The notes below the pieces were generated by a model, which saw only the letters and a list, made by a program, of their open reading frames with translations, searched no databases and was not told where the DNA came from. From the NCBI RefSeq assembly GCF_963675165.1, contig NC_087388.1:6109651-6173650 (forward strand): a stretch of DNA of 64,000 bases, given 5' to 3'. The position numbers were made by a program, and so were the translations under genes. This DNA is from Halichondria panicea (lineage: Eukaryota > Porifera > Demospongiae > Suberitida > Halichondriidae). Every line of letters begins with the position of its first letter. Position 1 is the stretch's first letter. This document shows, in pieces, positions 3,570-62,533 of the stretch.

Positions 3570-6500
3570 TTATAAGACTAAAATAAGAACTATAGATAAA
3601 TAGAAAACTAGAATAAATAAAATAAAAATAAAAATAATAATACGCAACATCAATCTGTTAGATCCAGTTTTCAATTTCTTGTAGATTGGCGGGACTAAAA
3701 GCCACACAAGAAATAACGTAATCAATATTAGCCACAAAGGGAGTGAATTTTTTGATGAGAATGATGATGAATATGAATACTGGATTTCTGCTTTTCTTAC
3801 TACATCACTAGCGTTTCGTTTGGAAACAACTCCTATGATACACAATTCTGGTGTGTTCACAAAACTGTCAAAGTTGTAATTGCAAGCTGCTGTTGTAGCT
3901 GTGGATGTTATTGAGCAAAGGCTTGTGAACGAGCTAGTTGAGTTTTCCTCCTTCCAACCATTGATACGATAAGTTATGTTTCCCATGATATGAGAGATGG
4001 CTTCAAAATGGACACCAAAAAAATAATAGCTATTTGCTGCAAGTATGATACTGATTGAGAAATTGTCAGTTTTGATGCAGTACTCCATATAGGTGAACGT
4101 CCAAGATCCATTGTGCAAAAAAGATTCATATTCTTTAACATCGTCAAAAACCACCAAAACAAATGGGCATTCTAGATCTGAGCTGTTATAGTCCGCTGAT
4201 AATTGGATTTGCAACCTCAAAGAGGCGATATATTCTGTGTAGAGCTCATAAATTGGAGTATTTTCTTCTGGAGTGAGTATTCCTTCCTCGTATATTGTGG
4301 AATTTTCTTTTCTGATATCATCACAATTGCTAATGTTGAAGTAAATTGGGATAATTTGAGCATTTGGGATCTCGGTGAGTGTTAGATGTAGCACATCAGG
4401 TCTGACTAGAGCTATAGGTAGTATGGATGGCTGGAGAAGCTGAGCGATATGTAATGAGCCTTCATACACCGGGGGATTTGTTGTGATATACATAAGGAAA
4501 ACAAAAACTGCTGCAAAGGCGAGAATCCCCGTAAAGAAGTAAAGTCTAGAAAATCTTTGAGAGCTTTCTTCAGAGACGGTACGGTTACATCTATACATCT
4601 GTAGTAAATGATAGAGTATATAATAATTATAGGCTAGCTAGCTAGCATTTCAAGAAAATGGACTGCATGCATGCATCCAGTAGCTATTTTACCTTGTAAA
4701 TCACCTTCCCCCAATGATTGTCAACAAAACTGAGGAATCCGGTACACAGGGATTTTGTTGTTGAGGATACGGTATTCTGCAATGCATGTATGTACATCAA
4801 AATTATAGCTACATGCATGTTATTGATAAACAGATACATAATTAGTATATACACTGATATAATTACATGCATATAATATGTAGGTACTCATGGCATGCAC
4901 TGATCTGAAAGCATGCACGACGTCCGTAAGTGTATTGCACATACTAAATTTGGCACCTGTTTACCTGATGTTCTTCATGAGGTTGAGAATCATTAATTAT
5001 AAGGTTGTTTTGGGAGTCTGAATCATCAGGTTGTGTGTGGAGATCGTTAATAGCTTCTGAATCTTGTTGTGAGGGAGGAGGCTGCTGGTTGCTATATGCG
5101 GGAGGACGAATATCTGGTAAATTGTATCTGGGAGGACCATTTTCATTAGATTCTGAGTAACTTGGAATTGTAGGTAGCCTGGTACTTTCACTGTATCCCG
5201 GTGGATTATCGGAATCAGATTCATATACCCCATCATCATCATCATCATCAACTTCGGACTTTAAAACAGGAGGTGGTGTATAATGTTGACTGGACTCTGA
5301 AACAACACTCCGAAGATTTCTTGATCTTATGGTACTGCCATACCTTTCAGCACGACTTTGATCTGTGTACATAATATAAGCAAATGCATTACACTCAAAG
5401 TGATACATAATCATGTGTAAAAACCTACGTGATAATGTGGATATTGATGAGAGATCTTCCTTTGTAGAAGATACATCAGATACTGAATTCAAATCGTCCC
5501 CTTGAGGGCTGGTGGATTCATCTGTGAGCACAACACACGCGCATGTTTAAAATCAGTATTTTTTTACACTTTACCTGCACAGGGTGACATTGGCAATGCA
5601 TCTGAGTCACTGCTTGTTCCGTGTATGGGTTCATCTGACAGAGAAACGTCGTGAGTGCTGATTATTGGAGCGCTTATTATTGGGATGTTGGCATTGCACT
5701 CGACCAGCACTCTCAAAACTTCTTGATGCTGCTTTTGATCTGCAATGTCAAAGGAAGTTAATCCAGCGTTATTTCTAGCATTGACATCACTGAGCTCAAG
5801 AAGATATTTGGCAGCTCCTTTGTTGTTGAATCGAGCAGCTATGTGAAGAGGTGTGTCTCCATCCTCATTCACAACTGAGACATTATGGTGGTGTGTTTTG
5901 ACCAATTGGGTGACTAAGAGTCCCCACTTTGACCAGTCCCAGCGACAGGAAAGATGGAGGAGGGTCATTCCATCACTATCCCTGATTGAACTGACATCAA
6001 CTGTCGGATCAAGCCCTATCAGTAAGGCTAAGGCAGAAGTTTGGTCACCACCATCTTGGCCGAATACTTTTAGTAGCTTGTTCGCCATAGGTTCACTGAG
6101 CATTGAAGCAGTGCCTGGATAAGCATCTGCTGGGGAGATCGAGTTAGCTTCTGCCTGCAACAGTGTAATACATTGTTTAAAGAAGCGGTGTAGGGTAAAC
6201 TACAATAAGTATGATGATTTTGTAAAAGTATGAATATAGTATTACCTTTAGTAGTGTTTGTTGACCAATTTTGACCTCAATGAATCTTTTTTCTTTCAGG
6301 TGCTGCATCTGTTTAAGACTCAACTGGCCGTAAACATGCTTAAAACATGCTGGAACTCGAAACACCAGCTCTGTACAGCCTTCTCGAACATTCTTCAAAT
6401 TTAGAACTTGATGTGGTAGTAGTTGTTCCCAGCATTCTATAAATACTAACTTCAATTCTTGAATTTGATCGTAGGAGATTGCATCAAAGTCAACATCGAT

Positions 6501-10022: not shown

Positions 10023-11721
10023 TCAGCAACTATACCAAAACATTATAAAGTTAAACATTGCACACGACAAAGCAAAGAAATTTGGAGTGCTCTGTTTGCC
10101 TTCATTAGAAAGTGGATTTACACTTAGTACAAAAGGAGATACTATAGCAACAACACACAATTCATCATTTTCCTCAGTCATAGTGATACTAGTAGATAGT
10201 GAAATGGTACATTGCTTGATGTTATTGTCATAAAAAATGACACTACATCTACTTATGGATTTCTCCGCAATCGCACGGATATTATATTGGTGAGAAATTC
10301 CAGAGATGCGTAGATTGATGGTAGTAGGTACAATAGTAGTACAGATCATCAGACCAGCGTATAAATAGGAGTTTTTATTGAGTACTATTTTTATAGACAG
10401 CTCGTCTTGATTAAAGCAAAAGTCAACGATAAAACCAGCTTGTATACCAGTTTTAAGAAACTCGGTATATATTTCCAGGTCATCATATATCACTAGAATA
10501 ACCGGGCAATCACATGAGCTGGACACAATACCTTGAGATGGGGTAATTGAATATGTTAGAATGGACCCATTCAAATAATAGCCTTTGTCAACGTGTTGTA
10601 TTGGTCTAGTTACGCTCAAGGAGATAGGTTTATTCACAGCAATACGGTCAACATCCAGTTCTTGACAATCGTTGACTGTGAAGACAATGAGAAGTTCATG
10701 AGAAAACTGGATTTTTTCGAATACAGTGAAAGTTATCGAGTCGTATGCATGCTCGATAAACGAGTTAACAAAGATTATATACCCTCCAGGCAGTTCGTAT
10801 ATGCTGTTTACAGTGATGTTTATTACAGGAAGGACTGTAGTCATGTTTGTTACAGCAATTGTAGGAAACACTAAAGAATCGTCAGGAACAGTAGTGGGCG
10901 GAGTTGACGTTGTCCATGGATATTCAGAAACAGTAGTAGTTGGAGTTGATGTTGTCCATGGAGATTCAGAAACAGTAATGTATATGATGGGTGGAGGTGA
11001 AGTTGAAGATTATTATCGTCAAGAGCCACGACCATTTGCATCGCCTTGAATGCTGATGAAAAAAGTTGAATAAATAATACATTAAATATAATGCTAGTTA
11101 AGGCTTACCGTTGTTACTAGAGACTGATCGCCAGTGCTGGATATGTCTCCATGATTGGTGTCAGCTTTGCTTGTGTGATCTGCATTCAGTGCATTCATGT
11201 TGTGAATAATTATATAGAAGTGTCTATATAGAGTTAATTTACCTTTGGTGGGATCAATGGAATTTTTCTGCTTCACTGTATTGATGCTGGTCATTTCCAT
11301 TGTGCCGCTGTCAGACCCTTAATAGAGTATAATATAATGATTGTAATTCTGAGCAGGTATAGCACTAACCATTAGTAGCCAGCTGCAGTGAAGAGGAACT
11401 CAGTCTGTACTCTGTATTTCTGGTAGCTTTAGTAAGACGTCTTTCGACCACCTTTGCGAGATCATTGTGCCCAACACTAGAACGTGAGAGAGCCTCAAAC
11501 ACGTCTGTCCAGTTTCTCTCACCACCTTTTAGCCACTCTGATAGACCCTCAAGATAGCAGTTATCAGGATCTTCACGACATCTTATATTGATAGTTTCAA
11601 TAGTAGAATTATTAACTTGCAGAGCTAACAGCATCTGCTTCCATTTGGCTCTAGCTTGAAATGTTGCTTCATAGACTGCACTAAGATCATCTAAAGTTAT
11701 TGAGAGTTTGGAGTCGGCCAT
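10023..11721 (-). pseudogene. DEATH-domain receptor-like copy, membrane segment deleted
   Basis: Exons on the - strand: 11721-11370 (DEATH), 11317-11243, 11179-11109 and 11052-10023 (ectodomain). The DEATH exon is intact: WKQMLLALQV, CYLEGLSEWLKGG, NWTDVFEALSR and GHNDLAKVVE fit a classical DEATH fold. In the last exon, after the conserved HSRRCKWSWLLTIII, about 100 nt present in paralogues at 28 and 31 kb are missing. The reading frame then enters a wrong frame and stops after 13 more residues, so the first membrane helix and the link to the ectodomain are lost. The ectodomain frame itself stays open to 10023. Its stalk has a 42-bp tandem duplication (about 10900-10983). Either this is a pseudogene, or it makes a soluble DEATH protein of about 190 residues. 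Confidence 0.72.
10900..10983 (-). repeat. Two 42-bp repeats encoding a Thr/Ser/Pro stalk
   Basis: The segment with gagttgacgttgtccatgga recurs 42 bp further on with few changes. On the - strand it encodes two 14-residue units of the type TVSE-PWTTSTPTT, a mucin-like stalk between membrane helix and ectodomain. Copies at 28 and 31 kb lack the duplication. Confidence 0.65.
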
Positions 11722-12434: not shown

Positions 12435-14236
12435 TTAAACTGTAAATAATAGCGTTATTGCAGATACTAAAACAAAGAAATTAGCAGTGCACTGTTTACC
12501 GTTGTTAGGGGGAGTACAAGTAGGAGCAAGAGGAGATAGTCTCGGAGATACCAGAGCAACAACACACAGTTCATCGTTTTCCTGGTACACATTAGAGAGC
12601 GAATTTATAGTGCAGGTGTTGATGTAGTGATGGATAACGGTGCACCTGCTCAAGGATTTCTCCGCAATCGCAAGGATATTATATTGGTGAGAAACTCCAG
12701 AAATGCGTAGATTGATGGTAGTAGGTACAATAGTAGTACAGATCACCAGACCAGCGTATAAATAGGAGTTTTTATCGACCACTATTTTTGTAGACAGCTC
12801 ATCTCGATTGAAGCAAAAGTCAACGATAAAACCAGCTTGTATACCAGTTTTCTGATTCAGAAACTCGGTATATATTTCCAGGTCATCATATATCACTAGA
12901 ATAACTGGGCAATCACATGAGCTGGACACAATATCTTGAGACGGGGTAATAGAATATGTTAAACTGGACCCATCCAAATAATAACCTTCGTTAACATGTT
13001 GTATTGGTCCAGTCACATCCAAAGACAACGACTTATTCATTACTGTACGGTCAACATCCAATTTTTGACAATCGTTGATCGTGAAGTCAATGAAAGCCCC
13101 TCGAGGCAGCCAGCTCCCTCCGAATATAGATAAAATTAAGGAATCGATTGTATGTTTGATAAATGAGTCAACGAAGATTGCTGACACTTTAGGCAGTTGA
13201 TATATGCTGTTTACATTGATGAGTAGGTCTGATGCAGGAGTCGTGCCACCTGCTACGGTGACGTCTATTGAAGCTGTATGAAATATGCTCTCTGTTGGAG
13301 TAGATTCAGAAACAGTAGTGTATATGATGGGTGCAGGTGAAGTTGATGTATCAGTATGAGATAGCTCTAGTTTGAGAACAGGCAGTAAGACTGCTAAGAC
13401 CACCACTGTTAGTACCACAAAATACGACCAATAAGATTATTATCGTCAACAGCCACGACCATTTGCAACGCCTTGAATGCTGAAGAAAGTTGAATTAAAT
13501 TCGCATTCATTCTGACACGAAAATGTATATAGCTCTGTCAATTGTCTGTCATGCATGCACAGCCACAGCCACATGCATCTGCACATGCACATGAGCACAT
13601 GACAGTAACTAGTTTAAGCTTACCATTGTCACCAGAGATTGATCGCCAATGCTGGATACTTCTTCGTGATTGGTGTCAGTTTGGTTTTCTGCATTCATGC
13701 AATGTTGTTATAAAATTAAGTGGCTCTTGATAGTTTGGAGTGTATTTATATACCTGTAGTGATATCAAGCTGACTTTTCTGTTTCACCTCACTGATGTTG
13801 GTCATTTCCATTATGCCGCTATCAGATGCTTAATGGAGTATATTATAATAATGATTGTAACTCCGAGCAGGTATATGTACTAGCACTAACCATTAGTAGC
13901 CAGTGAAGATGAACTCAGTCTGTACTCTGTATTTCCGGTAGTTTTAGTAAGACGTCTTTCGACCACCTTAGCGAGATCACTGTGCCCAACACTAGAGCGT
14001 GAGAGAGCCTTAAACACGTCTGTCCAGCTTCTCTCTTCACCTTTTAGCCACTCTGATAGACCCTCAAGATAGCAGTTATCAGGATCTTCACGACATCTTA
14101 TATTGATAGTTTCAATAGTAGTATTATTAACTTGCAGAGCTAACAACATCTGCTTCCATTTGGCTCTAGCTTGATATGTTGCTTCATAGACTGCACTAAG
14201 ATCATCTAAACTTATTGAGAGTTTGGAGTCGGCCAT
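12435..14236 (-). pseudogene. DEATH-domain receptor-like gene with +1 frameshift in TM1
   Basis: Exons: 14236-13891 (DEATH), 13828-13754, 13688-13624 and 13479-12435 (TM plus ectodomain). The first three junctions are clean. The ectodomain is almost identical to that of the intact gene at 30417-32185: DCQKLDVDRTVMNKSLSL, CDCPVILVIYDDLEIY and YLYAGLVICTTIVPTT are present. In the first membrane helix, near 13418-13430, one extra base relative to the duplicate shifts the frame and ends translation soon after the helix starts. The product would be DEATH plus linker plus a partial helix. A sequencing or assembly error is possible, because the lesion is a single base in an AT-rich run. Confidence 0.7.
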
Positions 14237-14878: not shown

Positions 14879-16660
14879 TTAAACTGCATGCATGTACATT
14901 ATTGCGGGTACCAAAACAAAGAAACTAGCAGTGCACTGTTTGCCGTTGTTAGGGGGAGTACAAGTAGGAGCAAGAGAAGATAGTCTCGGAGATACCAGAG
15001 CAACAACACACAGTTCATCGTTTTCCTGGTACACATCGAAGAGCGAATTTATAGTACACGTGTTAATGTAGTGATGGATAACGGTGCACCTGCTCAAGGA
15101 TTTCTCCGCAATCGCAAGGATATTATATTGGTGAGAAATTCCAGAGATGCGTAGATTGATGGTAGTAGGTACAATAGTAGTATACAGATCACCACACCAG
15201 TGTATAAATAGGAGTTTTTATCTTTGTAGACAGCTCGTCTCGATTGAAGCAAAAGTCAAAGATAAAACCAGTTTGTATACCAGTTTTCTGATTCAGAAAC
15301 TCGGTATATATTTCCAGGTAATCATATATCATATCACTATAGTAACTGGGCAATCACATGAGCTGGACACAATAGCTTGAGATGGGGTAATAGAATATGT
15401 TAGACTGGACCCATCCAAATAATAGCCTTCGTCAACGTGTTGTATGTAGGTCTAGTCACATCCAAAGATCGACTTATTCACTAATGTATGGTCAACATAT
15501 AATTTTTGACAATCGTTGACCGTGAAGTCAATGAAAGCCCCTCGAGGAAGCCAGCTCCCTCCGAATATAGATAAAATTAAGGAATCAAAGGTATGTTTGA
15601 TAAATGAGTCAACGAAGATTGCTGACACTTTAGGCAGTTGATATATGCTGTTTAAATTGATGGGTAGGTCTGATGCAGGATTAATTAGAGTTGTGCCACC
15701 TGCTACGGTAACGTCTATTGTATAATATAGCTGTACGAAATGTGCTCTCTGAATTAATTGTCCATGGGTATTCAGAAAAAGTAGTGGGCGGAGAGTTGAT
15801 GTTGGCAATATAATTATATATGATGGGTGGAGGTGAAGTTGATGTATCAGTATGAGATAGCTCTAGTTTGAGAACAGGCAGTAAGACTGCTAAGACCACC
15901 ACTGTTAGTACCACAATGATGACCAATAAGATTATTACTAGCCTCGATTCCAGGCCGCTGAGAAAGGCAAGGGGCTGGAGTCGAGGCTAGATTATTACCA
16001 TCACCAGCCACGACCATTTGCAACGCCTTGAATGCTGATGAAGAAAGTGAATTTCGCATTCACACGAAAATGTATAGCTCAGTCAATTGGCTGTCCTACA
16101 TGCACAGCCACATGCATGAGAGTAACTTACTATTGTCACCAGATATTGATTGTCAATGCTGGTGTGCATGCATGTCAGCTTGTTTTCATGATCTGCGATA
16201 ATAATAGAGTTAACTTATGTTTTTTGTATTACTTGTAGTGATATCAAGCTGACTTCTCTGATCCACCTCACTGATGTTGGTCATTTCCATTATGCCGCTA
16301 TCAGATCCTGAGATATAATTGCATGCAGGTGTATATAATACATACATCCATGGACTAACCATTAGTTGCCAGTGAAGATGAACTCAGTCTGTACTCTGTA
16401 TTTCCGGTAGCTTTAGTAAGACGTCTTTCGACCACCTTAGTGAGATTACTGTGCCCAACGCTAGAGCGTGAGAGAGCCTCAAACACGTCTGTCCAGCTTC
16501 TCTCACAACCTCTTAACCACTCTGATAGACCCTCAAGATAGCAGTTATCAGGATCTTCACGACATCTTATATTGATAGTTTCAAATAGTAGCATTGTTAA
16601 CTTGCAGAGCTAAGAACATCTGCTTCCATTTGGCTCTAGCTTGAAATGTTACTTCATAGG
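14879..16660 (-). pseudogene. Heavily damaged DEATH-domain receptor-like copy
   Basis: Homology to the genes at 28-32 kb runs through DEATH exon remains (about 16660-16360), linker exons (about 16307-16130) and the ectodomain exon (about 16030-14879), but lesions are many. The DEATH exon has lost its N-terminus beyond the EATFQARAK region and has an extra base in the run after ATAGTTTC. The ectodomain carries several indels (near 15220, 15330, 15450 and 15720), so only short frames remain (14879-15097, 15452-15808). A 51-bp hairpin transposon sits in the first membrane helix at 15939. It is clearly non-functional as a receptor. Confidence 0.85.
15939..15989. mobile_element. 51-bp hairpin mini-transposon with 9-bp target duplication
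   Basis: An almost perfect hairpin starting TAGCCTCGATTCCAGGCC and ending gtcgaggcta is flanked by the 9-bp direct repeat gattattac (15930-15938 and 15990-15998). Paralogues at 31400 and 28990 give the empty site (aataagattattat). Its ends match those of the 1,088-bp element at 2275, so it looks like an extreme deletion derivative moved by the same transposase. Confidence 0.88.
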
Positions 16661-16969: not shown

Positions 16970-17008
16970 AAATGTTTGTTTGTCTAAGTTGATCTAATAC
17001 CACAATTT

Positions 17009-23345: not shown

Positions 23346-23437
23346 TTGTCTAGAGCTACATGGTTCACTGATTCTCTGTATGCGTTGACCCAGTGTACAC
23401 AGAGCCCTAATCAACACAAACATCGCCGGTGCATATA

Positions 23438-40815: not shown

Positions 40816-40816
40816 C

Positions 40817-40852: not shown

Positions 40853-41319
40853 CGCATGCGCGCTCATTCCCCATGTGTGAGAAAATAATATCCAAGATCC
40901 AGATCCTCCTGGCAGAATCATCTTTGTCTTGAGGGCCTGGTAAGCCACAAAACACTACCATATAACAATATAGATAACAATATGCATGTACACAGGTCTT
41001 TTCTTCTTAGATAGTATTATATACACTGAACTACAGATCCTGGAAGAATCAATTTTCTTCTTTCTTGAGGTCCTGGTAAGCCACATAATACAACAATAGA
41101 TGCATGTAGACTAAATAACTTCTCAGTGACTTTATATAGATAAGCTAACTTTAATATAAAATTCATTATAGAAACTAATATATAACACTCTAATACTTTT
41201 GAGCGAAAGCAAAACATGGCGGGAGGCATTAGCACAGCGCCAGCTTGAACACTAGTTGGGGCAGTAGGCGGAAGCGGGTGACTCTTCTTGGCCACTGTAA
41301 CAACCTATCATCCACTGAC

Positions 41320-47895: not shown

Positions 47896-50800
47896 ATGAC
47901 AACAAATATTGGTTACAATGTATTGGTGAGTTGCAACGAGCAGCTAGTTGCTGACTTTGCTTCAGATCCGGAAGGAAACGCTGGAGTTATGTTCCAAAAC
48001 CATCTGATATCAGTCCAAACAAATCAGAAAATCAATCAGCTTGACAAGATAAACACGGATAAGGCCAGGATGCTAGTGGTAGAATTGCAGGCAAAAGTCA
48101 AAAGTTTTCCGGGAACTTATGATGAATTCATTAAAGTACTTCGGGAAAGGAATGAGCGACATGATGACCTCCTCTTCTCAGTGCTTACAGATAAGTACAA
48201 GGAGTTAGAAGCTGTAACAGCAGGTATATATATATATATGTGTGTGATCCATGCAGTAGCTGTAACCATGCAGTAGTTTACGCTATAAACTGTGCATGCA
48301 TATAAGACAATAAATTGCAATTGCATGCAGAAACTGAAGTTCCTAAAAACCCAGTAGAACCACAGAGGATTGTTGCAACCAGTAAGTACAGCTATATAAT
48401 TATAATGAAAGCACCACGGGTGCTGATGCCTGCGGAGGTGCCAAAGCTACATAACATAAAGCTAGCTTACATTACACATTGATCATGATAATTTTGCTGC
48501 ATGCAGACTGAGAATTAAAGAGTGAGTGGGTAATGATCGACGATGATTGTTGTTAAAAACGATGGATGCCAAAGTTCAAGTCTAGAGCCTTGCAGCTCTC
48601 TTTGATCTTTCAGCTACCAATAGCTAGCGTTCTAGTGCAGAGAACACTTGGTGAACAAGTTTTGCTACGGACTCTTCTGAAAAGGCTGCAATGGCAATTC
48701 TAAATAGGCATAACTCGAGAACGAAGCATTATTTTGCAAATCCACGAATTAAAATCCAAGTAAACACGACTAAGAAGCCTATAGAAACTCTTACTTGCAC
48801 TTGATTCATCCTTGAGCAGCTGTAGCGGTCTACACACACAAACATACAGACACACAAACACACTACCGTATACCTCGCTTGCGCATGCGCACCGAGGCAT
48901 AATAATAAGTCATACAATGCAATCAACACTCTTACTCTTGTCAATTAATAGGCTTTGTAGTTATTATATTTACATTAATACATGCAATGCCAAACTCTCT
49001 TTTCTGCGTGGTGTAGTTCTTGAGTTACCTACCGTGGACGATGGAGGGACACTACCTGATCCATTAGAGTACCCTCCTGATGACGCTGAAGTAGGAGCGG
49101 ACCTCAGAGCAGCTGCAACAAGACGACAGGAAGCCCCCACAGGTATGTATGTGAATGGATAAATTCTTTGCAATAACTATACATGTCAATTGTAGTTGAT
49201 ACATTCAAAGGACGATTGCTACAAGCCTTCCAAAGTGGAGAAAGTGAACAAGTCATTGAGCTTCTATCCCAGGCTGAAAGTCAGTCCATTGATCTGAGAG
49301 GTGTATCTGATGCAGACAGCAAAACTCTTCTTCATTTTGCATGTCGCAAAAACTGGGTGGACTGGCATGGCATCGTGCGAAGCCTCATCGATAAACACTA
49401 TTGCGATGTTGCAGCAGTGGATGAAGATGGGAACACACCCCTTCATGAGGCTTATCAATGCGGTAATTTCCCATCCGTAGAGTACCTGCTTAGCTTACCG
49501 ACTTGTAATCCCGATGCAATCAACAAGCACGACTACACAGTACTGAGAATGGCCCTTGAGGTAAACGACAAAAAAACTGCGAGAAATCTTTTAGCAACAG
49601 GACGAGTCGATCCTAGAAAAGGTAGCCCACGCGGTCATACTTACTCAGAATTGCTTGAAAGAAATCAGCTTCAACCACAAAAACAAGATGGCTCAGCTCT
49701 TGAAATGGTGACCCAGTTTGCGGAGTGCATGGAGGGTAACAATCACGTTCGTCCACCATTCACTTCTTATTGCTTGCGTGATACACTCAACAAGATCTTG
49801 AAGAATTGTGATCAAGTTTCAATCACTGGAATAGTAGATCGCATTAAACAGAACATGTTACCTCTTCCAGAAAAACCTGATGAGATTCATGATCTGCTTA
49901 TTGATATTCAGGGATTCTCAGACGAGTTTGTCATGCACAGACACAGACCTAGTAATGATTTGGGGAAACTTAAAGTTCGAAAAAAAGGTACGATTTTAAG
50001 TACGTATACATACAGCATAAGTTTTATGCCTGTTTTCCGCAGTAGATCGAATTACAGTAGTTATTGATGAAAGTGACGAGAGTATTGAGCCAGTACCAGA
50101 ACCCTCTAAACCTCCTGAGGTAGGGTTTTTGCCACCCTACTCATCTACTCAGGTATGATAGATATCTCTACTAACTGATGACAATCCTGTATTTTGTATA
50201 TCCCTGTATTTACTCTATACGTTCACAGAAAGTTCAACGTCCAACCAAACGTGAAATTAAGAAGCTAAACAAAAATCAAACCAAGCGTAAAAATAAAGAG
50301 CCAGAAGAAAGCATAACACGCATATGTCTCTATTATTGTTTCTTTGGATTTGTTATATTGTTTGTACTAGGCATTTTCGGTGCATTATTGTACGATGGCT
50401 ATTCACTCGTTGGTACTACCAGTGTGGTACAAATTCATCTGCAATCTGTGCCACTAATTGGAATACTTGATAATCCATCCACTTTTGATCGTCTTAGATT
50501 CTCAGAACCAACCAACGGAACAGACTTAGTCCCCATTAGCTTCTATACATTGAGGAATTGCTCTTTTGAAGATTCACTTACAAATGTTAAGATCAATGAG
50601 ACAATAACTGTAAACTTTGGCTTCCCGAATGACAAAAGCAAAGCTGTTACTGAATTGTATCTTCTTGGAAACACCACCCTGACTTTACATGTTACCACTG
50701 AAGTCATCCCTAACTATTTAACCGGTCACTGTATTGCATTTCTTCTTGTTTTTGATGATTTTAATAAGTTCTTGAACTTCACCTCAAACTATTTTTTAGC

Positions 50801-51257
50801 CGAAGAATTCTATTACAAAGAATGTATTGCTAACGAAAAATCACAAACGATGAATATAACATTCGACAAACCATCGTACTACTATATTGGTGTGTACACA
50901 GACATTCCGACTGAAGTTGATATGTTTTTTTTACACTTTCTCGGAACGTATTTGCAATACGACATTTCAAATGGGAACACTGGTTGCTCTATAAGCTCTC
51001 TGGGTGCTTTAAGTTGTGATTTTTCTCTGAATACCAACCAGCAATTGCAAACCTGTATTGTTGGTTTCGTACCACCTAGTACTGTGTTATCTGGAATAAA
51101 AACAACAACTGTAAACTTTTACACTGATGTCAACTCGCGAGCAAATATAACAATATATTTCTTTCTTCCTCTATTATTTTTCATGATTATTATGATTTTT
51201 ATTTCTTGTAATTATTGTATACTACATAGATATAGAAGGGGAAAGAAGCCTGCGTAA
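47896..51257 (+). CDS. CARD (subtype 2)-ankyrin transmembrane receptor-like protein
   Basis: Six exons, 47896-48223, 48331-48381, 49017-49142, 49196-49987, 50043-50152 and 50229-51257, give about 811 residues, all in frame. The CARD is of the subtype seen at 20598-20948 (LVSCNEQLVADFASDP, ERNERHDDLLFSVL). The 51-nt second exon (ETEVPKNPVEPQRIVAT) is related to that at 1788-1829. Next come the LELPTVDDGGTLPDPLE linker, ankyrin repeats (SDADSKTLLHFACR, DGNTPLHEAYQCGN), the helical post-ankyrin region, and an acidic Pro linker (SIEPVPEPSKPPEVG). A very basic stretch (KREIKKLNKNQTKRKNK) lies just before the first membrane helix, as expected for a cytosolic side. The ectodomain has LRNCSFEDS, FLLVFDDFNKFLNF, YYYIGVYTDIPTE and CIVGFVPPS; a second helix and a short basic tail end it. 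It appears intact. The start ATG is chosen because the CARD begins there. Confidence 0.84.
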
Positions 51258-51309
51258 GTTTTTATTGAGTTAGGTTCACACAATTTTGATGTTTAAGTTA
51301 AGTTTTTAT

Positions 51310-51807
51310 CTGTTCTCAACTGTGTTGCATTTCTCCTTGTTTTTGACAAGTTCTTAAGTTTCACTTTAAGCTCATCTTTAGTCGAAGAATTTTATTACGA
51401 AGCATGTATACTTGTTAATGAACAATTACAGATGAATATTCAACAAACCATCGTACTACTACATTGGTTTGTACACAGACATTCCCACTGAAGCTACTAC
51501 TTTCTCTTTACACTTTCTCGGAATATATCTTCAATACGACATTTCTAACAAAGATGCTGTCTGCACTATAGACTCTCGTGATGATTTAAGTTGTGAATTT
51601 GCAACCAGCAAACTTGTATTGTTGGTTCTGTTCCACCTATATACTGATACACCATTTAGAGTAACTGTAAGCTCTTACATGTACATTGGTAAATACTCAG
51701 AGACATACGTAGACACATTGTTTTTTAGTCCTCTAGTTATATTGTTTCTGTTATTTTTTGGGTTGGTTTATTGTTTTTTTAAGTGTTGTATACCTAAAAC
51801 AGAATAA
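51310..51807 (+). pseudogene. 3' fragment of an ectodomain exon
   Basis: It starts abruptly inside the conserved CVAFLLVFD region and continues to a final membrane helix (VILFLLFFGLVYCFFKC). It is closest to the exons at 43081 and 61604 rather than to its immediate neighbour at 50229. The frame is broken near 51435 and again around the CIVG region, where the Cys-containing motif is lost. It looks like a partial tandem duplicate. Confidence 0.75.
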
Positions 51808-53115: not shown

Positions 53116-53351
53116 ATCTGCTAGTGTAAGCTGATGGGTAAGTGGGTAACTGAATGCTCTTATTTTTCTTACTATAATTATACACATGAGCTTGTTAGCG
53201 TTGTTCCACTCCAATGCACATGAATAACAATAGGTTAATTGCCTTTATAATTAATTGTTGGCATAGGTAGCCTGGAATGGTGGAGGAGTGTGTCTATATA
53301 TGGATATTTGCCATACTTCCTATAATTATACTGATGCATGAGTGCTACACA

Positions 53352-55180
53352 CAAAGTTGGCGTAACTAAATTGGAGGAATTTGTCTGTTTTAAGACTAAC
53401 TTTGAGTCGTCATAACTTGAGTTTCGATAGTGTACCAGCACAATTATAAATGCATTTTGTAGCCCTTTGTAATGTCTATCTAATGATGTGTTTAAATCAG
53501 CGATAACCTAGAGATAGAAAAAGTTATGTTCTCTGAGAAAAGCCATGGCGTAACTAAATTGTAGGAATTTGGTCTGTTTTAAGACTAACTTTGAGTCGTC
53601 GTAACTTGAGTTTCGATAGAGTACCAGCGCAATTATAAATGCCCTTTGTAATATCTATCTAATGGTGTGTTTAAATCAGCAGAGATAGAAAAAGTTATGT
53701 TCTCTGTGAAAAGCCATGGCGTAACTAAATTTGGTCTGTTTTAAGACTAACTTTGAGTCGTCATAACTTGAGTTTCGATAGAGTACCAGCGCAATTATAA
53801 ATGAATTTTGTAGCCCTTTGTAATGTCTATCTAATAGTGTGTTTAAATCAGCGATAACCTAGAGATAGAAAAAGTTATGTTCTCTGAGAAAAGCCATGGC
53901 GTAACTAAATTGTAGGAATTTGGTCTGTTTTAAGACTAACTTTGAGTCGTCGTAACTTGAGTTTCGATAGAGTACCAGCACAATTATAAATGCATTTTGT
54001 AGCCCTTTATAATGTCTATCTAATGGTGTGTTTAAATCAGTGATAAGCTAGAGATAGAAAAAGGTATGTTCTCTGAGAAAAGCCATGGCGTAACTAAATT
54101 TGGTCTGTTTTAAGACTAACTTTGAGTCGTCGTAACTTGAGTTTCGATAGAGTACCAGCACAATTATAAATGGATTTTGTAGCCCTTTGTAATGTCTATC
54201 TAATAAATCAGCGATAACCTAGAGATAGAAAAAGTTATGTTCTCTGAGAAAAGCCATGGCGTAACTAAATTGTAGGAATTTGGTCTGTTTTAAGACTAAC
54301 TTTGAGTCGTCGTAACTTGAGTTTCGATAGAGTACCAGCGCAATTATAAATACATTTTGTAGCCCTTTATAATGTCTATCTAATGGTGTGTTTAAATCAG
54401 TGATAAGCTAGAGATAGAAAAAGTTATGTTCTCTGAGAAAAGCCATGGCGTAACTAAATTTGGTCTGTTTTAAGACTAACTTTGAGTCGTCGTAACTTGA
54501 GTTTCGATAGTGTACCAGCACAATTATAAATGCATTTTGTAGCCCTTTGTAATATTTATTTAATGATGTGTTTAAATCAGCGATAACCTAGAGATAGAAA
54601 AAGTTATGTTCTCTGAGAAAAGCCATGGCGTAACTAAATTGTAGGAATTTGGTCTGTTTTAAGACTAACTTTGAGTCATCGTAACTTGAGTTTCGATAGA
54701 GTACCAGCGCAATTATAAATGCCCTTTGTAATATCTATCTAATGGTGTGTTTAAATCAGCAGAGATAGAAAAAGTTATGTTCTCTGTGAAAAGCCATGGC
54801 GTAACTAAATTTGGTCTGTTTTAAGACTAACTTTGAGTCGTCATAACTTGAGTTTCGATAGAGTACCAGCACAATTATAAATGCATTTTGTAGCCCTTTG
54901 TAATGTCGATCTATCTAATGATGTGTTTAAATCAGCGATAACCTAGAGATAGAAAAAGTTATGTTCTCTGAGAAAAGCCATGGCGTAACTAAATTTGGTC
55001 TGTTTTAAGACTAACTTTGAGTCGTCATAACTTGAGTTTCGATAGAGTACCAGCGCAATTATAAATGCATTTTGTAGCCCTTTGTAATATGTCTATCTAA
55101 TGATGTGTTTAAATCTAGAGATAGAAAAAGTTATGTTCTATGAGAAAAGCTATGGCGTAACTAAATTGTAGGAATTTGGT
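53352..55180. repeat. Satellite array, about 170-190-bp units, dimeric order
   Basis: About ten units start ggcgtaactaaatt (53359, 53549, 53718, 53898, 54088, 54259, 54446, 54627, 54799, 54983, 55153). Each contains ctttgagtcgtcgtaacttg, gtttcgatagagtaccagc, tttgtagccctttgtaat and agagatagaaaaagttatg. Long units with tgtaggaa mostly alternate with short ones lacking it, giving a repeat of about 355 bp. No coding potential. It occupies the place where linker and ankyrin exons sit in intact genes. Confidence 0.93.
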
Positions 55181-55614
55181 CATGTGTCAATGTGTTTACT
55201 TTTGCTAGCTGCTGCATTATTATATGATATCTTTAGCAACAAATACGGACTTAACTACTGCGTTAGCTATGCTGGCTTCTCTGCCTAGAGGTATAGGCTA
55301 CAATAACTCTTACTCTTCCCCCCCGCTGGATACTAGTACTGAGATGTTCATCTAGCCTTGTTTGAAGCTTGATCTTAGCATATTCTCATGGCCGCATTTG
55401 CAGTTTTCTTACTAAAACTGCCATCATGATGACGTCATCAACGGATAATTAATAGACTTTGTATCCCTGGTTGCATGTAAGAGCTAAAGAATTTAAAGCG
55501 CAAAATCAATGCACAAGAACCCAAATGAGTTTTACCTATGCATGGAGTTATAAAATTAATGAATTAATGAGTGACCTGCACTTTTTAAATTAGTTCTTCT
55601 CTTATCCCAAACAG

Positions 55615-56619
55615 CCTGAGAAGCAAGCAGTAACAAAAGAAGTGTTCGAAGCTGCCTGTGGAGCTTGCATATGTTGTTGTTGTTGTTGGTTTGGTGTCTT
55701 CTTAATCCTTGGAACAACGGGTGCAATATTTTACGATGACTATTCGCTAGTTAATACCACGAGTGTGGCACTGATTCACCGGCAATCTGTACCACTAATT
55801 GCAACACATGATCTATCGACTAAATTCTTTAGGTTTTCAGAAATTAGCGGAACAGGCGTAGTCCCCATTACCTTCTATGAGCTAAGCAATTGCTCTTCAT
55901 TCATAGATGTTGATATAGATGAGATTGTGACTGTAAGCTTTGACTCTCCGACTGACAAGACCAAGGCTGTTACTGAGTTGTATATGCTAGGAAACACTAC
56001 AATTAGTATCGATATCGCCACTGAAGTTCTCCCTCAATATTCTCCGGATTCTTGTTTGGCAGCTCTCATTGTTTTTGACGATCTTAACAACTATTTAAAT
56101 TTCATTTCAAACTCAGAGTTTTCGCCAGGTGCCAACAACTATTACCTATTCGAATGCATTGCTAACACAAAATCACAAACGAAGAGTATAACATTCGACA
56201 GGCCATTGTACTACTATATCAGTGTGTATACAGACATTCCGGCTGAAGTTACTACTTACACTTTACACTTTCTTGGAACGTATCTTCAATACGACATTTC
56301 AAACAGGGACGCTCTCTGCACTATAGACTCTCGTGATGCTCTAAGTTGTGACTTCCGTTCTCTGGATACCAACTCGTTACGGCAAGTCTGTATTGTTGGC
56401 TCTGTGCCACCTACTGATTTGCTATTTGGAATAAGACTAGTAACTTTAGGGTATTACACAGCTGATAGCTCAGATCCAGAAATAGATGTGTATTTTTTTA
56501 TTCCTCTAATATGCATGTGCTCTGTGTTTTTGGTTTGTGCTGTAATTTGTGCTTGTGTTATTCTTATATCGTGTATACGTAGGCATAGAGGCAAGCGCCA
56601 GACAGCACACATTACTTGA
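55615..56619 (+). CDS. Orphan TM-ectodomain-TM exon
   Basis: A single open exon from an acceptor (ccaaacag at 55607-55614) to TGA, 334 codons, phase 0 at its start. A Cys-rich first membrane helix (CGACICCCCCWFGVFLILG) is followed by an ectodomain with ITFYELSNCSSFIDV, LIVFDDLNNYLNFI, YYYISVYTDIPAE, CTIDSRDALSCDF and CIVGSVPPT. A second helix and a basic tail end it. No CARD or ankyrin exon lies immediately upstream: there is only the satellite array and the CARD relic at 52911. The frame is intact, so it may have been orphaned recently or be spliced from elsewhere. Without an upstream exon its start is unknown. Confidence 0.65.
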   Translation, partial: PEKQAVTKEVFEAACGACICCCCCWFGVFLILGTTGAIFYDDYSLVNTTSVALIHRQSVPLIATHDLSTKFFRFSEISGTGVVPITFYELSNCSSFIDVDIDEIVTVSFDSPTDKTKAVTELYMLGNTTISIDIATEVLPQYSPDSCLAALIVFDDLNNYLNFISNSEFSPGANNYYLFECIANTKSQTKSITFDRPLYYYISVYTDIPAEVTTYTLHFLGTYLQYDISNRDALCTIDSRDALSCDFRSLDTNSLRQVCIVGSVPPTDLLFGIRLVTLGYYTADSSDPEIDVYFFIPLICMCSVFLVCAVICACVILISCIRRHRGKRQTAHIT

Positions 56620-57068: not shown

Positions 57069-60000
57069 ATGGCCGAATTGAACATAGGTTATGAAGCTCT
57101 TGTGAGCTGTCATGAAAAGCTGGTTTCTGAAATTGCTCAAGACCCAAAGCAGATGGCTATCACATTATTCCAGCATCGCTTCATATTTGAAGATACAAAA
57201 GCTATAATTAATGAGCTTGACAGAACCAAAAGAGATAAAGCGATATTGCTAGTGGACGACATTGAAAGCAAAGTCAAGTGTTATCCAGAGTTCTATGAAA
57301 AATTCCTGCTAATTCTCGGTGAAAATGAATTGCTGTATTGCAACCTTGTGAAGTCGCTCCAAGAGGAGTATGAAAGGATTGAAGCCGAGTCTAAAGAGGG
57401 TAATTTGAATCAATGCATCCTATGCCTCTATGTATAATTTTTATAGCTATACTTAATAAATAATAATAGTGTGCTATAATAGCAAGAGTTCATAATAAAT
57501 TTGGAATTCAGCAAACTAATAAATTCACTCAAACACATGCCAATCAGAAGAGTTTGATAGGTCATTGGGTTAGTTATTGCAGGCGCCCTTGTGCAACATG
57601 GCAAATATTACACTGGATGACATAATGCCCCCAGGGTCTGCAGTCCTCAGGCATTATTTTGCTCCATGCAGTGAAATATTTGGCATTTTGCGCTCATGCT
57701 GGGCAATAACTAATACATTAGTCCCAGTATTATTATTTAGGATACGATATAGCTATCCATTGAGCCTGCTACAATTGCTATGGGAGATAAAACTGATTTA
57801 GATATATAATTATTTAGGGAGCTGTTGTGTATATATAATTGCAACACTAGTTGTTGTATTTTGAGTGGGCAGATCAAAGGAAACACTGTGCTAATATCTG
57901 CCATATGGCACAGGTCAAGCCTTGAACTGTGCCACTATCTAGATACTGGCATAGTATGGCTGAAGTTACTTAAAGCTCACCCTCCACCCAGTAACCTGAA
58001 ACGGTCCCTTTTATAGTATAACACTGTTAAACAGATTCAGTGGTAGGCAGAAAATGTTTTTCATGCGTCTGGTGCATTCCACAGCCACCACAAGTAGTTG
58101 AAACTAGTTGTCCTATAAAAGGAGTGATGTGTACACGGAAAGGAATGCACAAGGAATGCAGTTGTTACACAGCTCACTTGTGCACACATGGGATATATTG
58201 GCTCAGTAGTGCCTTTGCCCTCGAGGCCTGCGGCCCTAGGGCCTAAGTCACTACTGAGCCAATATATCCCATGTGGCACTCGTGCATGTGTCACAACTAT
58301 AACATAAACACTAGCTACAGGCATTTATATAATAGATCATAAGGCACCGTAGTTACATCAACTATATACAGTGTTAGCTGTGTTGCATTTTGAAACCTAA
58401 GACATAACACAACATTTATTGGATTGAACATTCATCGCCGATATCACGATAGTGGAATATATGAGTTTTCACAAGAGGAGGTAGGACAGACGCGGTGCAG
58501 CTCAGTGTTTGATGATATAGCCCTTGGCTTGTTTCCTCTGTATATCTCACTCCATTCAACCTTATACTTATACAAGACACATTTATTGTGCTAATGAATT
58601 GCAGCAAATTCGCCAAAATTCGCATCCTAAAAACAGAGTACCGGGTTTAATAGTGACCTTTGGCACGATGTGCACACAATTGTAGGCCTGAAGGCCGTTG
58701 TCACTACTAAGCAAATAATTATGTATCCCATGTGTCACTCGTGCCATGCAATAATTATTATATATGCATGATGTTAATTGCAGTCATGCAATATTGAACT
58801 CTTGTAGATATTCTTGAGTTACCCTCCATGGATGATGGAGAGACACTACCTGATCCATTAGAGCACCCTCCTGATGACACTGAAGTGGGAGCAGACCTCA
58901 GAGCAGCTGCAACAAGCCGACAGGAAGCCCCTACAGGTATGTGCAATAATGATTAATTAAGAGAAATGAGTTAACACAATTACAGTTAATACATTCGAAG
59001 GACGGTTGCTGCAATTCTTCCAAAGTGGAGAATTTGAACAAGTCATCGAGATTCTCTCCCTGGCTGAAAGTCAATCCATTGATCTCAGGAATGTGTCTGA
59101 TGCAGACGGCAAAACACTCCTTCATCTTGCATGCCGCAAAAACTGGGTAGACTGGCATGGCATTGTGGGTAGCCTCGTCGAAAAGCACAATTGTGATGTT
59201 GCAGCAGTTGATGAAGATGGGAACACACCCCTTCATGAGGCATATCAATGTGGCAATCTCCCATCCGTAGAGTACCTGCTTAGGTTACCAACTTGTAATC
59301 CTGATGCAATTAACAAGCACGACTACACTGTACTGAGAAAGGCTCTTGAGGTAAATGACAAGAAAACTGTGACACAACTTCTAGCAACAGGACGAGTTGA
59401 TCCAAGAAAAGGTAGCTCACGCGGTCATAGTTACTCAGAATTGCTTGCAATGAATCAGCTCCAACCACAACCACAAGATTACGATGGCTCAGCTCTTCAA
59501 ATGGTGACCCAGTTTGCAGAATGCATGGAAGGTAGCAATCATGTTCGCCAACCGTTCACTTCTTATTGCTTGCGTGATACACTCCATAAGATCTTGAAGA
59601 ATCGTGATCAAGTTTCAATCACTGGAATAGTAGATCGTATTCAAGAGAACATGTTACCTCTTCCAGCAAACACAGACGAGATTCATGATCTGCTTATTGA
59701 TATTCAAACCCTGTCAAACGAGTTTGACATACGTGGGGACTATACTAATGAGTTTGGGGAAGTTCAAGTTCGAAGAAAAGATATGCCATTAAGTAAGTAC
59801 AGCTATAATAATTATTATGTGTTAGTGTTATATATAATTATAATTACGCTGGTTATGAGGGCAGGGTGTCATACAGGAGGGGAAAGGGGGATATCCCCCC
59901 TGACTCCAATTCCCCCCCCCCCTAAAATTTGCATTGGGGTCCATAGCTGGAAATTTTACATACTAACAGGATATTGAAATAAACAGTTGACCTTTTAGCA

Positions 60001-62533
60001 AACTTTTCTAGTCACTTTTCTTATTTCCCCCTCTACTTCAAAATCATATATGACACCCTGGAGGGAAATTCAGAGAGTCTGCTTCAACCATTTCCTATAT
60101 ATGCCACATTCTGTAGTCACAGCTGATGAACCTGATTCAGGTATTTTATTGTTAAGTTAGTGATATAGCCCAGGACTTTCCCATGCAATTGTATACACAA
60201 TCCAACAATCCAAAATTTGATTAATTGACCTCCTGTCCTTGCTAACCCTGTGTTCCCTCCCCCCACCACACACAGGGGTATAGAAAACTTTATAGGGAAC
60301 TGCATAATTATAAACTAGTCAGTCATAAAATAGTGCTTGTTTCTATTATTTTATCAGTACATGTATTACTTTAGTAGGTATTCCTGAGTTACCTACCATT
60401 GATGACAGAGGGATACTATTGGACCCATTAGAGGACCCTCCTGATGACACTGAAGAGAGAGACCCAGAGGACCTCAGAGCAGCTGTAACAAGTCCACAGG
60501 AGACCCCGACAGGTATATGATTGGAAATAATACTGCCTTGTGATTATCAGGAGATAAAACAATTGTAGTTGATACATTTGAGGGACGATTGCTGCAAACC
60601 TTCCAAAGTGGAGAATTTGAACAAACCATTGAGCTTCTATCTCAGGCTGAAAGTCATTCCATTGATCTGAGAGGCGTGTCTGATGCAGACGGTAAAACTC
60701 TCCTTCATCTTGCTTGTCGCAAAAACTGGATGGACTGGAAGAGTATTGTGCGTAGCCTCATTGAAAAGCACCATTGCGATGTTGCAGCAGTGGATGAAGA
60801 TGGGAACACGCCCCTTCATGAGGCATGTCAATGTGGCAATCTCCCATCCATAGAGTATCTGCTTAGCTTACCGACTTGTAATCTTGATGCAATTAACAAG
60901 CACGACTACACTGGACTGAGAATGGCCCTTAAGGTAAAGGACAAACCAACTGTAAGATATCTTCTAGCGACAGGACGAGTTGATCCTAGAAAAGGTAGCC
61001 CACGCGGTCATACATACTCAGAATTACTTGCAATGAATCAGCTCCAACCACAACCACAAGATTATGATGGCTCAGCTCTTCAAATGGTGATCCAGTTTGT
61101 AGAATGCATGGAGGGTAGCAATCATGTTCGCCAACCGTTCACTTCTTACTGCTTGCTTGACACACTCCACAAGATTTTGAGCAATCGTGATCAAGTTTCA
61201 ATCACTGCAATAGTACACCACATCAAAGATAAGATGTTACCTCTTCCAGAAAAAACGGACAAGATTTATGATCTGCTTATTGATATTCAAACCCTGTCAG
61301 ACGAGTTTGACATACGTGGGGACTATGAGTTTGGGGAAGTTCAAATCATAAAGAAAGGTATGAGTAGCTAATTATTATAATGGACACAAATCTTTACACA
61401 CAATACTTCACAGGAGAGAGGTCTGTACCTCGAAATGTTGAGGTTCTAGCTGATAGCACCAGGATTGAAGATCAGGATACACCTGACTACTACTCTGATG
61501 CAAGCGATGAAGTACCCTTTATCAGCCGTCGCCAGGTATAATTATACTGCATGAATGACATACACCTATTCTTGCGTGCATTTTTTTCTTATCTGGTCCA
61601 CAGAGCCTGAGATGTAGTGCAACAACAACAAAAAAATCAGCATATATAATATTCTGCCTTATTGGTTATAGTTTGTTTGCTCTCTTCTTAACTCTTGCAA
61701 TCAGAGAACCAATGCACTATTCAGTCGTTGGTACCACCAGTGTGGTGCAAATTCACCGGCAATCTGTGCCACTGATTTCCGGTAATGACTTATCCATTAT
61801 GAGGCTCACAGAGACCGGAGCAGACCTAGTCCCTATTACCTTCTATTCGTTAAGCAGTTGTTCGTCTCATGAATCTTTCGTAGACGTCAAGATCAATGAG
61901 ACAGTGACTGTAAACTTTGGCTCGACTAATAAGAGCAGGGCTGTTACTGAATTGTATCTGGTGAGACACACTACATTGACAGTAGATATCACCACTGACG
62001 TCATACCAACCTATGCAACCAATCATTGTGTTGCATTTCTCCTTGTTTTTGACAAGTTAGACAAGTTCTTAAGCTTCACTTTAAGCTCATTTTTAGTCGA
62101 AGAATTCTATTACAAAGAATGTATTGTTAATGAACAATTACAGATGAAGATCTTGACATTCGACAAACCATCGTACTACTATATCGGTGTGTACACGGAC
62201 ATTCCCACTGAAGCTACTACTTTCTCTTTACACTTTCTCGGAACGTATCTTCAATACGACATTTCAAAAGGGAATGCTGTGTGCTCTATAAACTCTATTG
62301 AAATTTTAAGTTGTGATTTCCCGGATTATATCAACCAGCAAACCTGTATTGTTGGTTCTGTACCACCCGCTATATCTACTGATACACCATTTGGAGTAAC
62401 TGTAAGCTCTTCCGCTATTGCAAACCCTGGTGCAGCTATAGTATATTATTTTATTTCTATAATTTCTATTTTTGTAGTTATAGTGACTAGTGTCGGTCTT
62501 TGTATTTATTTGTGTTCACTTGTTACATGTTAA
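57069..62533 (+). CDS. CARD receptor-like protein with two ankyrin modules
   Basis: Exons, all in frame: 57069-57399 (CARD), 58808-58936, 58986-59792 (ankyrin 1), 60378-60512, 60569-61357 (ankyrin 2), 61414-61535 (acidic) and 61604-62533 (TM, ectodomain, TM), about 1,080 residues. Two further linker exons have decayed: one near 57739-57800 has lost its GT donor and frame, and one near 60050-60140 is split by a MITE and has a 4-nt insertion. As they are phase 1-1 units, leaving them out keeps the frame. Both ankyrin modules have DADGKTLLHLACRKNW, DEDGNTPLHEA and the helical post-ankyrin region. The ectodomain has ITFYSLSSCSSHESF, LLVFDKLDKFLSF, YYYIGVYTDIPTE and CIVGSVPP. A poly(A)-like aataaa lies near 62754. 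It looks functional if the two decayed exons are skipped. Confidence 0.78.
58160..58305. mobile_element. Foldback element (MITE)
   Basis: The inner arms catgggatatattggctcag and ctgagccaatatatcccatg are exact inverted copies, and similarity extends outward through gttgt(t/g)acac. Worn single ends of the same family occur near 38340-38400 and 58690-58750. Confidence 0.8.
59862..60060. mobile_element. 199-bp MITE inserted in a linker exon
   Basis: It begins CAGGGTGTCATA and ends TATGACACCCTG, with the direct repeat gaggg on both sides (59857-59861 and 60061-60065). The sequence left and right of it (ggttatgaggg, aaattcagagagtctg) rejoins into a linker exon homologous to 42420-42500. Confidence 0.8.

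Follow-up and report, generated by a model that had tools for sequence, protein, structure and literature searches.

A stretch of 64,000 nucleotides from the genome of the sponge Halichondria panicea—hereafter the window, positions C12:6109651-6173650 of an assembly of 131 Mb in 39 contigs, in which contig C12 measures 6,759,720 bases—holds part of a gene cluster that pairs exons for CARD and DEATH domains with an exon for a membrane-anchored ectodomain. Judged from its sequence, this gene family is real and well supported. It probably represents a lineage-expanded family of mostly two-pass membrane receptors, which would carry their death folds in the cytosol and a further domain outside. This reading draws on joined reading frames, on junctions in RefSeq models, on an unlinked gene on contig C6, on statistics of exon order, on homology among the ectodomains, on a match to FADD, on selection and on hydrophobicity; from these we infer surface location and receptor function.

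Stop-to-stop frames and self-comparison of the window yield a set of repeated modules: CARD-like exons of three types (a, b and c), a DEATH exon, an ankyrin exon, a module here called C, short linkers and one large exon. The latter encodes a transmembrane (TM) segment, the ectodomain—of type A, B or C—and a second hydrophobic segment. Three genome-wide ectodomain searches, two at E<=0.001 and that with the ectodomain C query at E<=1, with every first-look candidate scored, confine the ectodomains to C12:5.87-6.18 Mb (49 copies) and the single gene on C6. The cluster extends well past both ends of positions 3570-62533 of the window. Merging the results of the genome searches by hand gives 153 features: 20 ectodomains of type A, 19 of type B and 10 of type C, 44 CARD, 19 DEATH and 30 ankyrin exons, and 11 copies of module C. 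Genome-wide, 150 of 161 candidates were scored for CARD, 150 of 549 for DEATH—a type of module that is very common in this genome—and 147 of 802 for ankyrin; weak copies of these exons may therefore have been missed.

Six genes of the window (GA, M1, M2, G3, G5 and G7; Table 1) are open and can be spliced, and a seventh, G4, is open conditionally: its ankyrin exon bears a TGA at 38670-38672, and the frame stays open only if this exon is skipped or entered past the TGA. G7 is open with either of its ankyrin cassettes as well as with both ankyrin exons. Nine spliced models, eight for these seven loci and one for the C6 gene, start with methionine, end at a stop and contain no internal stop, and their splice sites are canonical in 82 of 82 cases. 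They were spliced by eye and checked by script, and as sites were chosen to fit, they show that joined frames exist, not that these sites are used. An N-terminal death fold followed by ankyrin is found in G3, G5, G7, GA (with a type c head) and the C6 gene. The exon phases are regular: in all nine models the death-fold exon is 0-1 and the ectodomain exon begins in phase 0, while inner linkers and most ankyrin exons are 1-1, linkers adjacent to the ectodomain 1-0 or 0-0, module C 1-0 and the ankyrin exon of GA 0-1. A cassette of phase 1-1 can hence be gained or skipped without a break of the frame.

Annotated proteins repeat several of these junctions. RefSeq P0002 (LOC135345411 isoform X2) is exactly contained in the exons of G4 and joins ankyrin to ectodomain; multiple annotated isoforms usually rest on reads. 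P0111 (LOC135345414) joins DEATH, two linkers, the TM segment and about two-thirds of ectodomain B at the junctions of M1, to which it is 97% identical over 399 amino acids (aa), and P0112, 92% identical to M2 over 388 aa, joins linkers to the full ectodomain B. An earlier note on this DNA, made from the letters alone, had named transcripts in which CARD or DEATH exons and ectodomain exons are never joined as one of the observations that would overturn it; P0002 and P0111, both annotation models, do show joins.

We regard the unlinked locus at C6:5.879-5.883 Mb as the strongest independent test of the joined halves. On one strand and in the same order as in the cluster, it carries DEATH, module C, ankyrin and TM-ectodomain-TM, with identities to the window queries of 54% for DEATH, 43% for module C and 40% for ankyrin; its ectodomain is 27-29% identical to types A and B and 32% to the window copy of type C. 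The model of seven exons encodes 1007 aa without a stop and with two hydrophobic segments. Leaving out its mini-exon breaks the frame.

The order of exons across the cluster points the same way. A death-fold exon lies upstream on the same strand and in the same unit for 45 of the 49 cluster ectodomains, and the strict order of death fold, optional module C, ankyrin and ectodomain is kept in 40. In 5000 shuffles of labels, the maxima were 35 for the upstream death fold and 26 for the strict order, and in 5000 shuffles of strands 38 and 31. In these statistics type c is counted as a death fold, gaps of up to 9 kb are allowed within a unit, and the copies, being products of duplication within the cluster, do not count as independent events. 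The pairing of modules has its preferences. DEATH heads 18 of the 19 copies of ectodomain B, the remaining one being headless, and in some of them a CARD-b exon lies still further upstream. Of the ten copies of ectodomain C, seven are combined with module C, ankyrin and a CARD of type c or b. Ectodomain A is found with CARD a, b or c, ankyrin being present or absent. As each ectodomain type has favoured inner modules, the exchange of modules is real but not free. The earlier note's description thus survives in most of its structural parts. Its tally of at least six near-complete and about eight broken genes compares with six open genes, a conditional seventh, eight broken or partial units and one headless ectodomain exon; its pairing of CARD or DEATH, with or without ankyrin, with a membrane ectodomain agrees with the nine open models and with an order seen in 45 of 49 cases and in none of the shuffles to that extent; and its interchangeable cytosolic modules correspond to four death-fold types, with module C and ankyrin optional.

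The death folds themselves are recognised with different ease. One window exon of CARD type a reaches 24.1 bits against the Pfam CARD cut-off of 23.9, and six of 15 chosen members of the CARD family match Pfam CARD at E<=1; window exons of types b and c scanned alone show no such match. Type b is 41-42% and type c 19% identical to type a, and queries of type a and of type c have at least 11 distant places in common. Against the PDB, the CARD profile gives weak matches only, to ICEBERG (0.021) and caspase-1 (0.15), amid unrelated ones. For DEATH, 13 of 23 chosen family members match Pfam Death at E<=1 (best 2.8e-8), and the family profile matches FADD in the PDB at 2.5e-6. Membership of CARD is hence established through type a, and that of DEATH at the level of the family only. 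By these comparisons, DEATH and CARD types a and b are homologous to known death folds, and type c weakly so. Very large arrays of DEATH-type exons akin to those of the window also lie at C1:15.49-17.36 Mb and C6:0-2.64 Mb.

Between death fold and membrane, the ankyrin repeats score far above the Pfam cut-off. Module C has 50 matches genome-wide and none in the PDB. Its last ~95 aa match TRADD-like_N (PF20694), the only family listed, in two of 11 members below the cut-off (best 0.0036); the copy in the window is not among them. A search of the whole genome with PF20694 found eight places, all below the cut-off and none in the cluster, three of which overlap distant relatives of module C on contig C5, and one with PF09034 found a single weak and unrelated place. 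The end of module C, with its weak resemblance to PF20694, is probably TRADD-N-like.

Types A, B and C of the ectodomain are homologous (hhalign probability 96-97%), and four cysteines are invariant across 29 ectodomain A sequences. The ectodomains span 226-287 aa between the hydrophobic segments and hold six to nine cysteines. Lysine and arginine make up 4.6-7.1% of the residues between these segments versus 9.3-12.7% before them, and none of ten models has a hydrophobic N-terminus. Taken together, this suggests mostly two-pass proteins with the death folds inside. For proteins with ectodomains A and C, hydrophobicity points to an inside-outside-inside topology, and the C-terminus of GA may lie outside, given a third hydrophobic stretch that adjoins the second. 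Proteins with ectodomain B end in a hydrophobic stretch that lacks charged residues and resembles a glycosylphosphatidylinositol (GPI) signal, which it perhaps is; the short hydrophobic tail at the C-terminus of M1 would be either a second TM segment or such a signal. The description of the ectodomain as rich in cysteine and asparagine was not borne out, and we rejected it as a defining trait: its composition is unremarkable, with 3.8-8.3% asparagine and 2.2-3.2% cysteine, and an excess of N-glycosylation motifs is found in GA only.

Selection differs between the two halves. The median pairwise ratio of nonsynonymous to synonymous substitution rates (dN/dS; pairs with dS <0.02 and one DEATH copy left out) is 0.23 for CARD (54 of 55 pairs), 0.35 for the ankyrin exon (10 pairs) and 0.61 for DEATH (three very close pairs). 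For ectodomain B it is 0.60 (six pairs) and for ectodomain A 0.56 over the whole exon (117 of 120 pairs) or 0.49 for residues 36-270. Purifying selection on the CARD exons is strong, and ectodomains evolve faster. CARD exons are also 84-92% identical to the G3 copy and their upstream 300 bases 22-50%, in 11 comparisons that included no control of unrelated DNA. By segment, dN/dS exceeds 1 in 24 of 75 pairs for the first TM segment, in 23 of 101 for residues 231-270 and in 44 of 102 for the stalk plus second TM segment, and in 0 to 5 pairs elsewhere. The diversifying selection on the ectodomain that the earlier note had suggested looking for was not seen over whole exons in these pairwise comparisons within one genome, and we dropped it as an argument.

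A number of results weigh against a receptor family. Over whole exons, no pair has dN/dS above 1, with 0 of 117 usable pairs for ectodomain A. Two window DEATH exons scanned alone give no Pfam Death match, and the assignment of type c to CARD runs through weak links. The ectodomain has no recognisable solved relative in the PDB (best E 1.4), and N-glycosylation motifs lie more than two standard deviations above the shuffled mean in one of ten models, GA, with 8 versus 3.0 +- 1.6. Among the annotation models, P0002 starts after the TGA, within the ankyrin exon, and P0111 stops within the ectodomain—an end in keeping with the copy at C12:6093302-6094995, where the ectodomain is broken up over different frames. 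Of the five RefSeq proteins examined, not one extends from a death fold through a complete ectodomain. Finally, eight units of the window are broken or partial, their status being judged partly by eye.

How else could the cluster be understood? Rather than sense microbes, its products might mark self and non-self where sponge individuals touch, with death-fold signalling triggering rejection. Such a role would suit the concentration of the family in one large cluster, with its duplicated blocks and numerous broken copies, and also ectodomains that evolve more quickly than the exons for CARD and ankyrin; PMC8195603 states that sponges show allo-incompatibility. The basis for it is nevertheless one reference genome with dN/dS over whole exons and segments only, and we consider allorecognition an unlikely alternative.

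Somewhat less probable is a role outside immunity, in which the ectodomain would serve adhesion or a channel-like or ubiquitin-linked function—perhaps sharing its source with the middle domain of plant APD1-4—and the death folds would be mere scaffolding. It takes its cue from Pfam APD1-4_M: at E<=1, this profile is matched by seven of the 29 members of the ectodomain A family (best 4e-5), and the two whose scores are shown reach 22.3 and 20.0 bits, below the cut-off of 25. In plants this domain presumably lies between two TM segments, and we take the topology of the cluster proteins to be that of APD1-4, P2X or ASIC proteins. Against this role, the exons scanned contain no RING, the proteins ending soon after the last hydrophobic segment; a search of the whole genome with APD1-4_M returned 12 places, none of them in the cluster; a comparison by hhalign of the ectodomain with the APD1-4_M family on contigs C8 and C17 gave a probability of 0.2%, both profiles being shallow; and the usual partner of the ectodomain is a death fold. 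Membership of the APD1-4 ligases, with neither RING nor profile support, was rejected; the ectodomain may still be akin to APD1-4_M. Among the 12 places are other clusters with matches above the cut-off (C8:5481986-5610812 and C17:1898537-1915762), and in one such protein the domain lies, by eye, between two hydrophobic segments of an exon without death fold or RING.

It is more doubtful still that the layout is an artefact of our models, soluble CARD- or DEATH-ankyrin genes adjoining separate ectodomain genes and the joins reflecting a chance of compatible phases. RefSeq does contain CARD-ankyrin proteins that by eye lack a membrane segment (P0001 and P0110), and the lack of a full-length protein among the five examined fits here as well. 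However, in P0002 and P0111 portions of the two halves are joined at predicted junctions, the C6 gene repeats the order, the order exceeds all shuffles, and the phases fit in nine of nine models, although these were chosen to fit. That most copies are pseudogenes and the open ones functionless relics is very improbable, since, for all the eight broken or partial units and the frame breaks in several others, CARD and ankyrin exons are under purifying selection, ectodomain dN/dS stays below 1 and CARD exons are conserved where the DNA upstream is not.

If the receptor family is read as proposed, an N-terminal CARD or DEATH domain, an optional module C and optional ankyrin repeats would be placed in the cytosol, and a hydrophobic segment would lead to the cysteine-containing outer domain, after which a second segment would return through the membrane (ectodomains A and C) or end the chain (ectodomain B). 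Contact with a ligand or a neighbouring cell might then cluster the ectodomains and thereby pack the cytosolic death folds under the membrane, where they could seed the assembly of FADD-like or CARD adaptors and lead to caspase or NF-kB output. In a published assay, the FADD homologue of the sponge Amphimedon is described as supersaturable, with a nucleation barrier (PMC10055258). Ankyrin and module C might select or restrain partners, and CARD-ankyrin genes without a membrane exon, like that at 17009-20241, might act as adaptors, brakes or decoys. The phase-matched cassettes would allow duplication and alternative splicing to swap inner modules beneath a common outer domain.

Were these proteins made and placed as predicted, a sponge would link outer recognition directly to signalling through CARD and DEATH, with inner parts that can be exchanged and with no TIR, NACHT or LRR. 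This would widen the known routes from recognition to death-fold assembly in early animals and provide candidate genes for the recognition of self, non-self and microbes in sponges. H. panicea has already been used in immune challenge experiments (PMC8242945).

The arrangement of some genes invites a further step. In four of 12 CARD-a copies, a DEATH match on the minus strand lies 286-418 bases from the CARD-a exon on the plus strand, an arrangement as in paired immune genes. Three of these four DEATH exons are interrupted or lack a start, and both sides are intact only in M2/G3. We give only a slim chance to sponge-specific paired receptors, in which head-to-head DEATH and CARD types with related ectodomains would be co-expressed, mixed surface complexes would set DEATH versus CARD output and phase-matched cassettes would swap inner modules; that M2/G3 alone has an intact DEATH partner reduced what was already a small chance. 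If true, animals would have in such receptors a cell-surface counterpart of the paired NLRs of plants, which could be the as yet missing system by which sponges tell self from non-self.

Table 1. Genes, exons, partial units and head-to-head gaps; positions are those of the window unless C12 is given
Feature	Position	Strand	Content
Broken module C and linker exon copies	228-1863	-	Broken/partial; unit continues off left window end
GA, complete gene	8088-3570	-	1158 aa; no internal stop; 12/12 splice sites canonical
GA exon, CARD-like type c	8088-7740	-
GA exon, module C	7201-6246	-	~317 aa
GA exon, ankyrin	6154-5575	-
GA exons, linkers	5521-5429, 5362-4965, 4776-4705	-
GA exon, TM-ectodomain C-TM	4598-3570	-
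DEATH exon and ectodomain B	10026-11721	-	Broken/partial; TM segment apparently out of frame (by eye)
DEATH exon and ectodomain B	12438-14236	-	Broken/partial; TM segment apparently out of frame (by eye)
DEATH and ectodomain B unit	14882-16609	-	Broken/partial
CARD exon and ankyrin exon without TM	17009-20241	+	Close to RefSeq P0110 (LOC135345417)
Lone CARD-like type b exon	20601-20948	-	Broken/partial
DEATH exon fragments	22861-23410	-	Broken/partial
CARD, linker and ectodomain A, without ankyrin	25133-26852	+	Broken/partial; CARD exon frame broken early
M1, complete gene	29697-28005	-	510 aa; DEATH 29697-29346; linkers 29293-29219, 29157-29087; TM and ectodomain B 29039-28005
M2, complete gene	32185-30417	-	504 aa; DEATH, two linkers, TM and ectodomain B
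Head-to-head gap between coding starts of M2 (DEATH) and G3 (CARD)	32186-32499		314 bases
Head-to-head gap	C12:5900863-5901147
Head-to-head gap	C12:6001759-6002126
Head-to-head gap	C12:6126242-6126658
G3, complete gene	32500-36448	+	866 aa; CARD a 32500-32830; linkers; ankyrin 33320-34102; linkers 34161-34327, 34817-34945; TM-ectodomain A-TM 35468-36448
G4, seventh locus	37391-44028	+	CARD a 37391-37727; linkers; ankyrin 38653-39444; linker set 42420-42929; TM-ectodomain A-TM 43081-44028
G4 exons matching P0002	38653-39444, 42420-42500, 42600-42731, 42805-42929, 43081-44028	+
G5, complete gene	47896-51257	+	811 aa; CARD-like type b 47896-48223; linkers; ankyrin 49196-49987; linker; TM-ectodomain A-TM 50229-51257
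Ectodomain A fragment	51297-51804	+	Broken/partial
Ectodomain A exon	55594-56619	+	Open; no upstream death-fold exon of its own
G7	57069-62533	+	CARD a 57069-57399; linker and ankyrin cassettes 58808-59792, 60378-61357; linker 61414-61535; TM-ectodomain A-TM 61604-62533

Some further features of the locus were noted. The predicted cytosolic linker of GA at 5362-4965 is rich in proline and acidic residues and contains PPxY-like motifs, which presumably could recruit WW-domain ubiquitin ligases. Two module sets of the cluster, C12:6079383-6087843 and 6123539-6130592, lie ~43-44 kb apart and have equal match scores, which points either to a segmental duplication of recent date or to a haplotype left uncollapsed during assembly. 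A tandem repeat with a unit of ~170-190 bases and open frames on the minus strand occupies 53238-55092 and appears as ten pieces in the self-comparison, and a short element is present within the cluster in two inverted copies (2192-2375 and 3118-3432).

Compared with known systems, the family is the animal one that the earlier note had supposed—a sponge's—and it is built unlike TLRs and NLRs, as that note had also claimed: Pfam scans of the exons, linker exons not being among those scanned, contain no NACHT, LRR or TIR. Fragments of NLRs or TLRs were rejected on these grounds. A retroelement or viral origin was rejected as well, since spliced genes with signalling domains of animals speak against it, a judgement from domain matches with no dedicated search. 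Sponge NLRs (NLRC and NLRD, in Dysidea avara) share an N-terminal CARD or DEATH and expansion in sponges, and some are clustered (PMC12909245), but the cluster adds a membrane ectodomain where these have NACHT and LRR. It likewise differs from TLRs and the sponge Ig-TIR proteins by the lack of TIR. One row of a table in PMC6208332 lists a D. avara gene with immunoglobulin (Ig) domains plus CARD as differentially expressed after microbial patterns; it, too, combines CARD with domains typical of ectodomains, but these are Ig domains, and the passage shows neither ankyrin nor a two-pass block.

Death receptors of the TNF-receptor type likewise couple an ectodomain to a DEATH domain, through which FADD-like adaptors are recruited. 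The proteins described here differ by their opposite topology, with no signal peptide seen, by the use of CARD as well and by ankyrin, and the scans show no TNFR repeats. ANKDD1-type proteins, which are soluble, also combine ankyrin with a death domain, but the similarity spans 7-14% of the query, which we take as the ankyrin part.

Searches for the layout elsewhere returned little beyond this species. The passages on sponge immune receptors in PMC12909245, PMC8242945 and PMC6208332 do not describe it. No relatives in other sponges were found: in two protein searches the named matches were from H. panicea only (2 of 19 and 2 of 6 rows), and in a third, 2 of 92 rows were from H. panicea, the others covering at most 23% of the query and carrying ankyrin domains. 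These searches need shared words of five residues and scored 7999-8000 candidates each, so that distant relatives could escape them. The earlier note's statement that no described receptor family has this exact layout stands in its literal form for the open literature searched—outside which lie the Amphimedon architectures in Figure 4D of Kaur et al., which may include a membrane form—but not in its wider sense, as close relatives are in print in the study by Kaur, Iyer, Burroughs, and Aravind from 2021 (PMC8195603).

That study reports 357 TRADD-N proteins of Amphimedon; most of these have one to three death folds at the N-terminus, and ankyrin repeats at the C-terminus are common. They share with the present family the N-terminal death fold, a middle module—module C being weakly TRADD-like_N here—the ankyrin repeats and a large expansion in a demosponge; section 10 of the study, however, gives them no membrane ectodomain, whereas here a TM-ectodomain-TM block comes next, and module C or ankyrin is absent from many copies. 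The same study describes ~50 proteins of the oyster Crassostrea virginica with a cysteine-rich ectodomain, a TM segment, DED, TRADD-N and variable ends, and proposes that external stimuli trigger these receptor-like forms. Like the H. panicea proteins, they join a membrane ectodomain to a death fold, with variable inner modules and ~50 paralogues, but their ectodomain is N-terminal, with a TM helix and variable C-terminal domains (PMC8195603). In the nine models from H. panicea this order is reversed, the death fold being N-terminal and the ectodomain, bracketed by hydrophobic segments, coming after it. As read from these models, the family thus unites an interior of sponge type—death fold, a module that is perhaps TRADD-N-like, and ankyrin—with a membrane ectodomain in the order reverse to that of the oyster, a layout that is partly new.

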